Shown: in pieces, positions 21,528-43,590 of the stretch
Numbering within the stretch: the stretch's first letter is position 1
Layout of the letters: each line of letters starts with the position of its first letter
DNA from: Gammaproteobacteria bacterium
GTDB lineage: Bacteria > Pseudomonadota > Gammaproteobacteria > UBA6429 > Thiohalophilaceae
Reading direction: 5' to 3'
Length of the DNA: 64,000 nt
NCBI GenBank assembly: GCA_016194635.1
Contig: JACQBC010000026.1
Coordinates: 124,001 to 188,000 of the forward strand
The notes under the pieces: generated by a model
Databases searched by the model: none
The model's input: the letters and a program-made list of their open reading frames with translations, nothing else
Told to the model about the DNA's origin: nothing
Made by a program: the position numbers and the translations under genes

Positions 21528-21591
21528 AATTGCCATATTTAAACAAAGTAGGAGTATGCCTCTGTCGGAGAGGTTATTCCCTGACGCGACA

Positions 21592-21609
21592 CGCCGTAAA
21601 TACGTCCCT
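21592..21609 (+). repeat. Solo remnant of the structured intergenic repeat (copy 1)
   Basis: CGCCGTAAATACGTCCCT is the conserved strand segment shared with four other intergenic copies at 33.3, 41.9, 42.1 and 43.4 kb. Here the flanking arms and apical hairpin are missing or degraded. It lies about 27 bases upstream of the likely -10 box of trpS. Confidence 0.7.
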
Positions 21610-21635
21610 CGCCAATACCGTGTAGATATTTCAGG

Positions 21636-31506: not shown

Positions 31507-32344
31507 GCAAGCATTCACGCCATTGTGTCCGCCAGGCGATCCATAGTTTGCGTAATGGCGGCAGGCTGATACGGTATCGCATTACCTGGTAACCATCCTT
31601 GTGAATTTCTTGCAGCAAGGTTTGATAGATTTCCGCCATGATGATGCCGGCGCGTTGAGTGACTCGATCCACCTTTGGTAAGAGTTGAAAGGCGGTTTGA
31701 TAGTGCGATTTGGCAACGGCGGCCATTGCTTCTAGTACTAACACCAGTTGTGGATTGCTGCGGTGCAGCAAGACATCGCGTGGTTCTACCGCGTGCCGTT
31801 GTAATTCATCCAGCGGTAGATAGATCCTGCCACGACGGGCGTCTTCATGGATGTCGCGGATAATGTTGGTGAGTTGAAAAGCGATGCCCAGTTCATGCGC
31901 ATATTCTAACGTGGTGGCATTGCGATACCCAAAAATTTTCGCCGACATCAGTCCCACCACACCGGCCACCCGATGACAATACAGCAATAACTCTTGCCAA
32001 TTATGATAGGTGGTGTTATTGAGATCCATTTCCATGCCGTCGATAATTTCTAAAAAATTTTCTTCAGGCAAATGGAAGTGCTGGATAATCGGGGTTAACG
32101 CCAGTGTAATAGGGTGTTGTGCCTCGTGGTTATAAAGACGGTGGATCTCATCCCGCCACCATTGCAATTTACGTCGACGTACCTCGACATCTCCAGGTGT
32201 GTCGGCGATATCATCAACCTCACGGCAATAGGCGTATAATGCAATGATCGCGCGGCGTTTGGTCTTCGGTAATACAAGAAAACTATAATAGAAACTTGAA
32301 CCACTGTGCGCGGCTTTTTGTTTACAATATTGCTCTGGGGTCAT
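31499..32344 (-). CDS. hpnD: Presqualene diphosphate synthase
   Basis: HpnD condenses two farnesyl diphosphates to presqualene diphosphate. The 281-residue trans-isoprenyl synthase has the two Asp-rich motifs YCREVDDIADTPGD and NIIRDIHEDARRGRIYLP, the latter the hallmark of HpnD. It overlaps hpnC by 4 bases (ATGA) and hpnE by 8 to 20 bases, forming a compact hpnCDE operon. Start ATG 32344 is fixed by the overlap. Confidence 0.95.
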   Translation of the reverse strand: MTPEQYCKQKAAHSGSSFYYSFLVLPKTKRRAIIALYAYCREVDDIADTPGDVEVRRRKLQWWRDEIHRLYNHEAQHPITLALTPIIQHFHLPEENFLEIIDGMEMDLNNTTYHNWQELLLYCHRVAGVVGLMSAKIFGYRNATTLEYAHELGIAFQLTNIIRDIHEDARRGRIYLPLDELQRHAVEPRDVLLHRSNPQLVLVLEAMAAVAKSHYQTAFQLLPKVDRVTQRAGIIMAEIYQTLLQEIHKDGYQVMRYRISLPPLRKLWIAWRTQWRECLHG

Positions 32345-33234
32345 GCTTGTGTTATTGCTGATTGATAACGAACAATTTTATTGTTATAAAATAACATTAA
32401 TCGGAGAATTGCACCAGCATCGCGTAAGCGCAGGGTAGGGCGAATAAAACTGCGGCGCCGTATTTCCAATTTATTAAGTAGGCACCAGCCAGAGGCCACG
32501 ATGGCGCGTAATTCCCATGCCAATCGACCATGTAACTGTGCGGTCAAGGCGGCGCCCTGTGTCAATAATTGCCGTGCACGCCGTAGTTGCACACCAATGA
32601 GTCGCTGGAGTGCAGGGTTGTCACGCCGTTGCACGAGATCATTGTACTGAATACCGTAGACGTGCATCTCATCCTCGGGGATATAACAGCGTTGACGTAA
32701 TTGGATGTCGCTGTCGATATCTTGGATGAAATTGATCAATTGCAAGGCGGTGCAGATATTGTCCGATAGTGCAAACGTGCTGGGATTGGCTTGCCGGTGT
32801 AAATGTAACACAATGCGACCGATGGGGTTGGCGGAGTGTCGACAGTAGTTCAAGAGTTCTTGTTCGTTAGCGTAACGTTGGTTGTCAATATCAAGACGAA
32901 ATGCCGTGAGTAAATCATAAAAAGGTTGTAGCGGCAGGTTAAAGTGTTTAACGACATCGGCCAGGGCTAGAAATAATCCATCCTCAGAGGGTTTTTGCTG
33001 TGCGATGGCATCCAGTTCATTCCATAGAATTTGCAATTGCCGATGGCGGGTGATGGAATCGGCGTTGCCTTCATCGACAATATCGTCGGCACGGCGTGCG
33101 AGGCAGTATACCACCGCAGTGGCGCGGCGCAGGTGTCTGGGTAATAACCGTGAAGCCACCGGAAAGTTTTCGTAATGCAGGCTTGCAGTGGTTAAGCACT
33201 GTTGATAGGCGGCGGCGAGGGCTGGGATGGGCAT
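32341..33234 (-). CDS. hpnC: Hydroxysqualene synthase
   Basis: HpnC hydrolyses presqualene diphosphate to hydroxysqualene. The 297-residue squalene/phytoene-synthase fold has NFPVASRLLPRHLRRATAVVYCLARRADDIVDEG as the first Asp-rich motif and LINFIQDIDSDIQLRQRCYIPEDEM as the second. LLPRHLR is typical of HpnC. It is the first gene of hpnCDE. No squalene-hopene cyclase is found in this window, so the end product (hopanoids, or another squalene use) is inferred. Confidence 0.95.
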   Translation of the reverse strand: MPIPALAAAYQQCLTTASLHYENFPVASRLLPRHLRRATAVVYCLARRADDIVDEGNADSITRHRQLQILWNELDAIAQQKPSEDGLFLALADVVKHFNLPLQPFYDLLTAFRLDIDNQRYANEQELLNYCRHSANPIGRIVLHLHRQANPSTFALSDNICTALQLINFIQDIDSDIQLRQRCYIPEDEMHVYGIQYNDLVQRRDNPALQRLIGVQLRRARQLLTQGAALTAQLHGRLAWELRAIVASGWCLLNKLEIRRRSFIRPTLRLRDAGAILRLMLFYNNKIVRYQSAITQA

Positions 33235-33323: not shown

Positions 33324-33495
33324 GTTGGTGGAAGTCGGGTGGCTCGGTGCGTGTGACTTGCCGTAAATACGTCCCTGGTAGACTCGGGGGCGACAGTCGC
33401 TCATGGCATCCTGCCTTCCGCGACACTTGCACATCCTTGTGCATCGTCCCTGTCGCCCACGGTCACCCGCACAAAACCACCCGGTAACCACCAAC
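33324..33495. repeat. Structured intergenic repeat, copy 2 (branched form)
   Basis: This element fills much of the 393-base gap between hpnC and the gene at 33628. Two 34-base arms (33324-33357 and 33462-33495) pair at about 25 of 34 positions, the mismatches clustering in two opposed 4-base blocks. Inside are the conserved segment GCCGTAAATACGTCCCTG, then a perfect 9-bp stem GGGCGACAG (33388-33396) with CTGTCGCCC (33450-33458). That stem encloses two small hairpins, TCGC/GCGA and TGCAC/GTGCA. The rest of the gap holds only A/T-rich promoter-like sequence; no gene is seen. Confidence 0.75.
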
Positions 33496-33627: not shown

Positions 33628-33852
33628 GTGAAAACATTCAGACCTATGCTTGTCGGTATCATCATTGGCGTGTTAGTCGGATTGTGGTTTGGCGTCAACA
33701 TCGGCAAGGGCAGACCGTTTTATGGTAATCCCTTTGCTGCCGAGCGCACCGTCGGCGAACGTATCAAGTCTACTATTGGTGAAGGTGTGGGCAAGGCCGG
33801 TGCGACTTTAGAAAAGCTGGGAGAAGATCTAAAGGGTAACCCAAAACCGTAA
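33628..33852 (+). CDS. Small single-span membrane protein
   Basis: A 74-residue protein. Residues 6-27 (PMLVGIIIGVLVGLWFGVNIG) are a Gly-rich transmembrane span, followed by a charged amphipathic helix (ERTVGERIKSTIGEGVGKAGATLEKLGEDLKG) resembling YtxH-like or stress-associated helices. Function is unknown. GTG 33628 has TGGAG 7 bases upstream. It stands alone and ends one base before the convergent rmuC stop. Confidence 0.75.
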   Translation: MKTFRPMLVGIIIGVLVGLWFGVNIGKGRPFYGNPFAAERTVGERIKSTIGEGVGKAGATLEKLGEDLKGNPKP

Positions 33853-41942: not shown

Positions 41943-42056
41943 TTCACCATCGGTCTGGTTCCCCTGCCGTGACTCGCTGTAAATACCTCTCTGTACGCGC
42001 GGCCGCCGCATCCCTGCGGCCGACGGTCACGGCAGGGGGACCAGACCGTTGGTGAA
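41943..42056. repeat. Structured intergenic repeat, copy 3 (near-perfect long hairpin)
   Basis: Arms 41943-41973 and 42026-42056 pair over 31 bases with only one true mismatch and one G-T pair. The 52-base interior holds the conserved segment TCGCTGTAAATACCTCTCTG and a GC-rich apical hairpin GGCCGC/GCGGCC around GCATCCCTGC. It starts 14 bases after the gyrA stop, so in RNA it would also form a massive 3' hairpin. Confidence 0.85.
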
Positions 42057-42113
42057 GGCTAAGGCTAGCGTCGTAGTGGTAGGTCAGATTTATACCCGTT
42101 ACTCATGAGGCGT

Positions 42114-42218
42114 ATGGAAAGGATACCTCCCACCAAGACCGTCCGCCGCAGGGATGCTGCTGTCGAGTCTACAGGGAGGGATTGACGGCGTGTCTTGGTG
42201 GGGGGGTATCCTTTCCAT
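42114..42218. repeat. Structured intergenic repeat, copy 4 (opposite orientation)
   Basis: Arms 42114-42139 and 42192-42218 pair almost fully (one bulge, one wobble), but their sequence (ATGGAAAGGATACC...) is unrelated to that of copy 3. The interior, read on the minus strand, is again GCCGT-AAT-CCTCCCTGTAGACTC followed by GCAGCATCCCTGC. Copies 3 and 4 sit back to back in the 402-base gap between gyrA and serC. The rest of the gap, up to the serC ribosome binding site, shows no gene. Confidence 0.82.
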
Positions 42219-42330
42219 GTGACTCAGTAATAAGATGCTTTAGTTCAACCTAGATTGTAATTGGGTTTGCAGGTAAAGCAATCCAGAAAAATGACCCGAT
42301 AGGTTTAATGAAATTTAAGGAGATATAGTA

Positions 42331-43420: not shown

Positions 43421-43590
43421 GCGGCCATCGGTCGAGCTGCCTCCACAGGTGATCGTCGGCGGCAGGGATGCCGCCGCCGAGCCTACACGAGGGCAAGGAT
43501 GCCCGAGGTAGAGCAATGCACGGAGCAATTGCCGAGGGATGTATTCACAGCGAGTCACGACAGGCGGTGTTCGGCCGGCTGCCGCGTGCC
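43421..43590. repeat. Structured intergenic repeat, copy 5 (interrupted)
   Basis: Read on the minus strand the core parts are present: GAGTC... with CGCTGTGAATACATCCCTC, then TGTAGGCTCGGCGGCGGC and GCATCCCTGC with its pairing partner. About 45 bases are inserted between the GAATACATCCCTC half and the TGTAGGCTC half. Arms are partly decayed. It fills the gap between serC and serA and ends about 40 bases before the serA start. Confidence 0.7.

Follow-up and report, generated by a model that had tools for sequence, protein, structure and literature searches.

The 172-nt palindrome at positions 33324-33495 of the window, the 64,000-nt stretch of gammaproteobacterial DNA analysed here, is a branched copy of a dispersed repeat, and its multi-helix junction is conserved in relatives, in part by compensatory change. 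The preliminary description had read this copy as a structured RNA. The junction bears out that reading in part, yet a mobile palindromic repeat whose core is structured describes the copy better than a structured RNA that belongs locally to the hpnC region. This description is preferred because the two orientations are about equally frequent, the spacer of a sister species is empty, and the family is patchy and multi-copy. We consider it slightly better than an even chance that the copy represents the branched form of a non-autonomous, REP-like mobile palindromic repeat whose folded G-strand, the strand with GGA in its loops, carries predicted CsrA-type sites. The features of the branched copy and of the other family copies in the window are given in Table 1.

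Table 1. Features of the branched copy and of further family copies (positions in the window).
Feature	Position	Strand	Remarks
Whole branched element, 172 nt	33324-33495	minus	Strand given is the G-strand (GGA in loops)
Outer arm	33324-33357		26 of 34 positions complementary to the other arm
Second outer arm	33462-33495		34 nt, partner of 33324-33357
Core hairpin 2	33368-33380	minus	TAC/GTA around CAGGGAC
Inner stem, 5' side	33388-33396		Plus strand GGGCGACAG
Inner stem, 3' side	33450-33458		CTGTCGCCC
Junction hairpin GTCGC/GCGAC with GGCAGGATGCC tip	33396-33424	minus	GGA loop on the minus strand
Junction hairpin TGCACA-AGGA-TGTGCA (minus-strand letters)	33428-33443	minus	Readable as hexaloop AAGGAT, closed by C-G
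Short-form copy, own arms (31 nt, 94% complementary)	41943-42056	minus	Model match 41957-42042
Short-form copy, subfamily A, conserved outer ends	42099-42233	plus	Model match 42123-42208
Composite copy, further hairpins between hairpin 1 and hairpin 2	43437-43567	plus	Family copy

The branched element lies between hpnC (32341-33234, minus strand, Pfam SQS_PSY; the gene name is that of the preliminary description) and a 74-aa open reading frame at 33628, for which a Pfam search gave no match. A perfect inner stem enclosing two hairpins had been proposed, and it is present by sequence (GGGCGACAG/CTGTCGCCC); minimum free energy (MFE) folding recovers the inner layout on both strands of 33324-33495, with the last G of the stem (33396) pairing into the adjoining hairpin in the plus-strand fold. 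The tip of the hairpin at 33396-33424 is GGCA/TGCC, and the hairpin at 33428-33443 is formed by TGCACA/TGTGCA. Hairpin 2 of this copy has a 7-nt loop, one base above the ANGGAN of the family, and is absent from the minus-strand MFE structure. As for the mismatches between the arms, described as two symmetric 4-base blocks, one block of four is there, whereas the second is mismatched at three of its four positions and one extra single mismatch lies elsewhere. The whole element reaches -84.9 kcal/mol on the plus strand (z -6.70) and -87.2 kcal/mol on the minus strand (z -6.19), and none of 200 shuffles was as good on either strand, so that the proposed comparison with shuffled sequence comes out clearly for a fold. 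Taken alone, the inner module (33387-33464) gives z -4.38 on the plus strand (0 of 200 shuffles) and z -3.61 on the minus strand (1 of 200). A known Rfam family was rejected, the whole window being without a match at gathering level; with a loose threshold around the branched element, only snoZ6 appeared (E 0.13), below its cut-off.

The inner module, 33387-33464, was used as the query against six genomes. It matches 18 times in its own genome (G000), 4 times in G001 of the same genus, 8 times in G007, twice in G017 and once in G016, and no match was found in G012; the matches in G017 and G016 are partial, as are some of the 18. Matches to the branched module, for which the preliminary description had suggested looking, thus occur in four relatives, and the refuting outcome that it named, the lack of any homologue with the inner three-helix layout, is excluded. 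The copy had also been called larger than the others; it does belong to a larger form of the dispersed repeat, but shares that form with module matches elsewhere in its own genome. From 30 loci, 25 modules of G000, G001 and G007 were aligned, with L365, L366, L369, L389 and L390 left out as partial or rearranged. In this alignment 89.1% of cells pair and 10 of 23 pairs are changed on both sides; none of 500 shuffles was as high on pairing or on double changes, and 7 of 500 were as high on the number of pair types. Seven of the double-changed pairs belong to the inner stem and three to the TGCAC-type hairpin. There is hardly any variation among the 25 modules in the GTCGC/GCGAC hairpin or its tip, which are therefore conserved, yet without covariation support.

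Compared with the short form, the branched form has a two-hairpin segment inserted in the apical loop, which turns the apical GGCGACA-GGGA-TGTCGCC into a three-way junction. Two GGA hairpins are contributed by the module on the G-strand, one with a hexaloop (TGCAC-AAGGAT-GTGCA) and one with a pentaloop (GGC-AGGAT-GCC), and several of the loops added in the branched form read A-GGA-N, with the first N missing. The copy at locus L002 is identical to the branched copy over 77 of 77 module bases, though their arms differ. In Methylotuvimicrobium buryatense (L277, 1471-1604), hairpin 1 holds a branched insert that looks unlike the insert of the own genome. At L358 of G001, the branched module adjoins what look like tRNA 3' ends (GGTTCAAGTCCACC...CCACCAAC); the arms of the branched copy and of several other copies resemble this tRNA-like 3' end, possibly by chance.

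A BLAST search of the own genome with the branched element gave 51 matches, and a covariance model (R1) was built from 13 short copies aligned with their arms (alignment A1; 95.3% paired, with double changes at 18 of 32 pairs, a level that 1 of 500 shuffles reached). In the 3.7-Mb own genome, R1 has at least 147 matches at E<=0.1 (150 candidates scored); the branched copy is not among them because the model describes the short form. The 106 matches from other loci, in an alignment fitted to the model, are 92.7% paired, with 31 of 32 pairs double-changed and no equal among 500 shuffles. The G-strand follows a single plan: an arm, ACCG, hairpin 1 (e.g., GGCGACAGGGATGTCGCC), CGAG, hairpin 2 (e.g., TACAGGGATGTA), approximately ATTTACGGCGAGT, and the complementary arm. 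Subfamily A, with conserved arms and the sharp ends TACTAATGAG and CTCAGTAATA, accounts for 62 of the 147 own-genome copies. Within the window, the copy at 41943-42056 has lost the GGA from its hairpin 2 loop, and the composite copy, which carries further GGA hairpins, differs in build from 33324-33495. A stretch at 21586-21611 of the window matches half of the core (GCGACACGCCGTAAATACGTCCCTCG) and is apparently a decayed or truncated copy. Two further places, C14:51536-51598 of G000 and L391 at approximately 1479-1600, lack the segment that separates the two GGA loops, a loss to be expected if the loop repeats recombined.

Beyond this genome the family is widespread and patchy. Matches at E<=1e-6 occur in 9 of the 30 genomes searched (149 candidates scored per genome), with at least 137 in G000, 57 in G007, 52 in G012, 27 in G017, 6 in G016, 3 in G001, 2 each in G002 and G026, and 1 in G006. 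Under stricter filters, with at most 31 candidates scored per genome, 27 of 143 genomes of the class carry matches. A pattern scan of named genomes gave at least 116 stretches, with 80 loci among the matches listed; by title, almost all of these 80 records are gammaproteobacterial, and one says only Proteobacteria. The titles name Marinobacter, Rheinheimera, Stenotrophomonas, Halopseudomonas, Methylomonas, Methylotuvimicrobium, Pectobacterium, Yersinia similis, Shewanella and Idiomarina, all of which we take to be Gammaproteobacteria. Arrays also occur: a Saccharophagus metagenome-assembled genome (L235, 3117-3740) has four copies approximately 180 bp apart in one orientation, and Neiella litorisoli (L292, 4883-5801) has six in mixed orientation. 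The enterobacterial copies and one copy on a viral contig (L264, L278, L291 and L346) are without long arms, and two of these four have short A/T flanks, like two-way terminators. We found no published description of the repeat family in the literature searched, which left most subscription papers outside.

The syntenic region of the sister species G001 is approximately 74% identical. Its spacers matching 33324-33495, 41943-42233 and 43437-43567 are short and, by reading, contain no element, and an R1 search of the 16-kb syntenic stretch found none. The lack of a copy from the three compared spacers indicates that the family is mobile, and that it is both mobile and structured is well supported. 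Derivation of the arms from the target site was rejected, as no word of more than 7 nt is common to the arms and the G001 spacers. Carriage by phages or plasmids was likewise rejected; the plasmid search gave two weak matches and the phage search one. Two viral contigs were found by pattern, one of them with a model match, and were inspected for open reading frames.

The setting of the copies among genes was counted with gene calls from a custom hexamer-based caller. In the own genome, 55 of the 147 copies lie between convergent genes and 14 between divergent genes, while those between co-directional genes are divided into 40 sense and 38 antisense; 13 overlap a gene call. Among the 105 elements from other loci, 88 could be placed (17 are too near the end of the locus), with 24 convergent, 14 divergent, 21 sense and 29 antisense. 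This absence of an orientation bias relative to neighbours makes simple cis-regulation unlikely and speaks against action within mRNAs; with sense and antisense nearly equal, cis-regulation of neighbours was rejected as the main reading. The preponderance of convergent over divergent settings would suit a structure that serves the host at the 3' ends of genes, either a transcription terminator or an mRNA-stabilising hairpin, and so would the enterobacterial copies L264 and L278, which are short stems with A/T flanks. We nevertheless regard such a role as very improbable, given that the sister-species spacers are empty, that expansion has taken place in single lineages and that the orientations are about equal; a two-way terminator, moreover, needs neither hypervariable arms, nor conserved loops, nor strand-specific wobble. 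Copies less than 500 bp apart are mostly arranged with their G-strands outward (10 of 13 pairs in the own genome and 11 of 18 at other loci); none and one, respectively, point inward, and the rest are tandem. A promoter scan of 19 of the 21 gaps between outward pairs gave some single good matches and no consistent gain over shuffles, and divergent promoters between such pairs were rejected for want of a consistent signal in the gaps scanned.

The outer arms vary from copy to copy and still remain complementary. Among the own-genome copies outside subfamily A with arms of at least 20 nt, 33 of 71 are without any mismatch, though the arm sequences differ between copies, and in 41 of these 71, which have a 56-nt core, the mean identity is 0.84 for the core and 0.45 for the arm. 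Per site, the arms have diverged 6.2 times as much as the core in G012, 12.6 times in G007 and 11.0 times in G017 (18, 13 and 6 copies, respectively). Both arms have changed at once in 397, 557 and 133 cases in these three genomes, versus 76, 33 and 22 cases in which one arm alone has changed. In G012, the core is found in both orientations relative to the outer flanks. At loci L189-L206 of that genome, a larger element with terminal inverted repeats near GGCGTTCCGAATACCAG contains the palindrome, with the core in both orientations between the same flanks. Template switching is reported to keep stems perfect (PMC8794818) and to homogenise arms and invert spacers (PMC8604942). We infer that template switching acts on the arms of this family as well. 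The perfection of the arms would then be kept by template switching or arm-to-arm conversion during replication, and the same processes could also invert the core between the arms.

The mismatches that do occur in the arms carry information about the strand. Under neutrality, G.U and A.C should occur at equal frequency, since a G.U on one strand reads as A.C on the other. On the G-strand of the 85 of 106 other-locus elements with arms of at least 15 nt, extended by Watson-Crick matches only, the arm mismatches comprise 118 G.U, 14 A.C, 42 G.A, 9 C.T, 20 G.G and no C.C. The bias is also present at arm positions outside the scoring of the model (51 G.U versus 5 A.C), so it was not made by the search, and with copies in both orientations any bias of host replication or transcription should average out. 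The wobble bias would then belong to the element, whose G-strand is either selected to fold or exposed and mutating. Recent copies show little or no strand bias, with counts of 73 to 51 in the own genome (P 0.06; 114 of 147 copies, with arms of at least 20 nt) and 6 to 5 in relatives. The core stems, with few mismatches, have no G.U excess (9 to 13 and 3 to 1).

The strand favoured in diverged copies fits a structured RNA and fits a folded single DNA strand equally well. The element could accordingly be REP-like and moved as folded single-stranded DNA by an enzyme that has gone unrecognised, with the loops as its recognition sites and the likeness to CsrA targets a convergence. The strand bias is consistent with such a mode of transfer, as G.T wobble forms in DNA too, and so is an intergenic distribution in which divergent promoter regions are under-represented (14 copies, versus 55 between convergent genes). 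The close pairs, mostly in one inverted arrangement, also have a parallel in REPs, whose pairs are oppositely oriented and which are found where the neighbouring genes are co-directional or convergent (PMC3733652). We think this account unlikely, though it deserves real weight. A search for Y1_Tnp (PF01797; RAYT/IS200 family) gave no match in G000, which is 99% complete, and no other candidate enzyme was identified; by itself, the account leaves unexplained why A-(N)-GGA is kept in almost every loop, with most of the loops that the branched form adds among them.

The loop pattern of the G-strand is the one recognised by CsrA/RsmA. Hairpin 1 lay outside the search pattern, and its loop holds GGA in 96 of 97 other-locus elements, with an A two bases before it in 87 of the 96; hairpin finding required a GGA, and 97 of the 106 named rows were used. 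Any base adjoins the GGA on either side, and all eight stem pairs are double-changed. Because GGA was part of the search pattern for hairpin 2, the count for this hairpin is confined to the 23 elements that fall outside the pattern; ANGGAN is present in 22 (the exception is L283:2556), on stems of six kinds: tac/gta, ccc/ggg, cac/gtg, cat/atg, tcc/gga and atc/gat. Two of these 22 are repeats in the L292 array, and a 24th candidate, L230, is a cut match that holds the pattern and is therefore uncounted. Among the 132 own-genome copies considered, hairpin 1 was left without resolution in 12 and hairpin 2 in 27.

According to PMC7652899, the CsrA SELEX consensus is RUACARGGAUGU, high-affinity RsmE targets carry an ANGGAN hexaloop, and dimers bridge pairs of sites at a spacing of 10 to 63 nt. 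All 12 nt of the SELEX word are found in 17 of the 147 own copies and 13 of the 106 others, the shorter ANGGAN being the common pattern. The two GGA are 23 columns apart in A1, and the family thus has A-N-GGA-N in hairpin loops with at least two sites at a distance of 10-63 nt, though not every copy keeps both. In single G-strand MFE folds, the copy at 42123-42208 forms neither core hairpin, and L284 forms hairpin 1 without hairpin 2. The own genome has one csrA gene, and csrA was found in 24 of the 27 element-bearing genomes of the class sample; the three in which it was not found, G026, G087 and G118, are 75, 88 and 67% complete. Among good assemblies, csrA is present in 21 of 21 element-bearing genomes versus 108 of 123 overall (P = 0.05). 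From these sequence features, binding of the element RNA by CsrA in the cell may be put forward as a tentative lead, to which we give somewhat less than even weight.

A more conventional origin would make the copies decaying MITEs of ordinary DDE insertion sequences, with the core as inherited cargo that has no role of its own. Terminal inverted repeats of the MITE kind are indeed found at the ends of subfamily A, which are sharp and conserved, and in the G012 element, where the palindrome lies, by reading, between repeats of approximately 17 nt; other copies have private arms only. A search for the subfamily A ends gave at least 108 matches. In 37 subfamily A copies with both ends, inspection by eye showed no shared flank and no evident target-site duplication, and a TA duplication inside the ends is possible. 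Three loci (L392 at 1493, L393 at 1460 and L394 at 1485) carry single subfamily A ends followed by unrelated sequence, as half elements broken near the core. The four single ends that were read in the own genome (C37:104659 left out) are truncated or internally deleted copies, and a search of this genome for DDE_3 (IS630-type) gave no match; an IS630-type parent of subfamily A was therefore rejected, no full-length parent standing at the four ends read. Descent from MITEs in this sense seems hardly probable at all: besides the missing DDE_3 and the lack of a full-length autonomous copy at the four single-end places, the loops and paired stems are conserved across genera, and recent copies show little or none of the strong strand bias of diverged ones.

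Taken together, the copies belong to a single family in which a conserved core of two hairpins is flanked by outer arms that diverge and yet stay complementary. In diverged copies, it is the GGA-loop strand that folds or becomes exposed in single-stranded form; the loops of the core keep A-N-GGA-N while their stems change in pairs, and in branched copies a three-way junction with two more GGA hairpins replaces the apical hairpin. Propagation or persistence may depend on the folded G-strand, either as read-through RNA or as a single-stranded DNA intermediate. As RNA, it could let a CsrA dimer bridge the two core loops, and a branched copy would offer more sites. The boldest form of this reading, which we think improbable, is that of a class-wide mobile element dependent on CsrA: dimers would capture its folded transcript, or single strand, through paired ANGGAN hairpins, hairpin trees such as the branched copy would have evolved to hold more CsrA, the copies in genomes with more than 100 of them would jointly act as a dispersed CsrA sponge, and the arms would be rewritten at each copy by template switching.

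Should CsrA indeed bind the loops, this widespread dispersed repeat of Gammaproteobacteria would provide a global regulator with a large number of hidden binding sites, and a change in copy number would be one means of retuning it. Even without CsrA, the family offers a clean natural experiment: near-identical cores on private, often perfectly paired arms show the arms in the course of being homogenised, and the strand at work is indicated by the wobble bias. The family also adds a REP-like group for which no RAYT-type mobilising enzyme was found in the own genome.

Several known systems offer points of comparison. With the small RNAs CsrB/CsrC and RsmX/Y/Z, described in part in PMC7652899, the family shares several hairpins on one strand with GGA in A-N-GGA-N-like loops. 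They are single sRNA genes, whereas the family consists of dispersed mobile copies and has no Rfam match at gathering level in the window. The resemblance to inverted repeats homogenised by template switching, as described in PMC8794818 and PMC8604942, lies in double changes that keep the arms complementary and in spacer inversion, as seen in G012; here, in contrast, the process would be at work in a family of dispersed copies whose core is conserved. MITEs are likewise short, non-autonomous and numerous, with inverted-repeat ends, but the arms of this family differ between copies outside subfamily A. The CGTC-tagged REPs, mostly of Alphaproteobacteria, have stems of 8-9 bp whose first two positions are A/T, together with CCA tails, and resemble the family in the CGTC that precedes hairpin 1 in many copies and in having no known dedicated transposase (PMC3733652). 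In this family, however, the stems vary freely, the first pair of hairpin 1 differing widely between copies and being mostly G/C, and each element also has a second hairpin and long arms.

The closest likeness is to the GTAG REPs and their RAYT enzymes, which, according to PMC2817692 and PMC3733652, are non-autonomous palindromes of high copy number and patchy occurrence that lie mostly between genes, with an enrichment where these converge; they often form inverted pairs and show compensatory change. The present family is also dispersed and mostly intergenic with frequent inverted pairs (13 close pairs in the own genome), and at approximately 115-170 nt, with two or more hairpins on long variable arms, it exceeds the 20-40 nt of those REPs. 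A conserved GTAG (GT(A/G)G) head is missing, as the would-be position on the C-strand is C-G paired in 62 of 104 rows and is a mixture of C, G and T in own-genome copies. Y1_Tnp is present in 20 of the 30 genomes searched, including G007 (1 match), G012 (3) and G017 (2), and RAYT mobilisation was rejected for the own genome because it has none. Lacking an invariant GTAG tag and, in the own genome, any Y1 transposase match, the family may be said to live like a REP without being filed as one.
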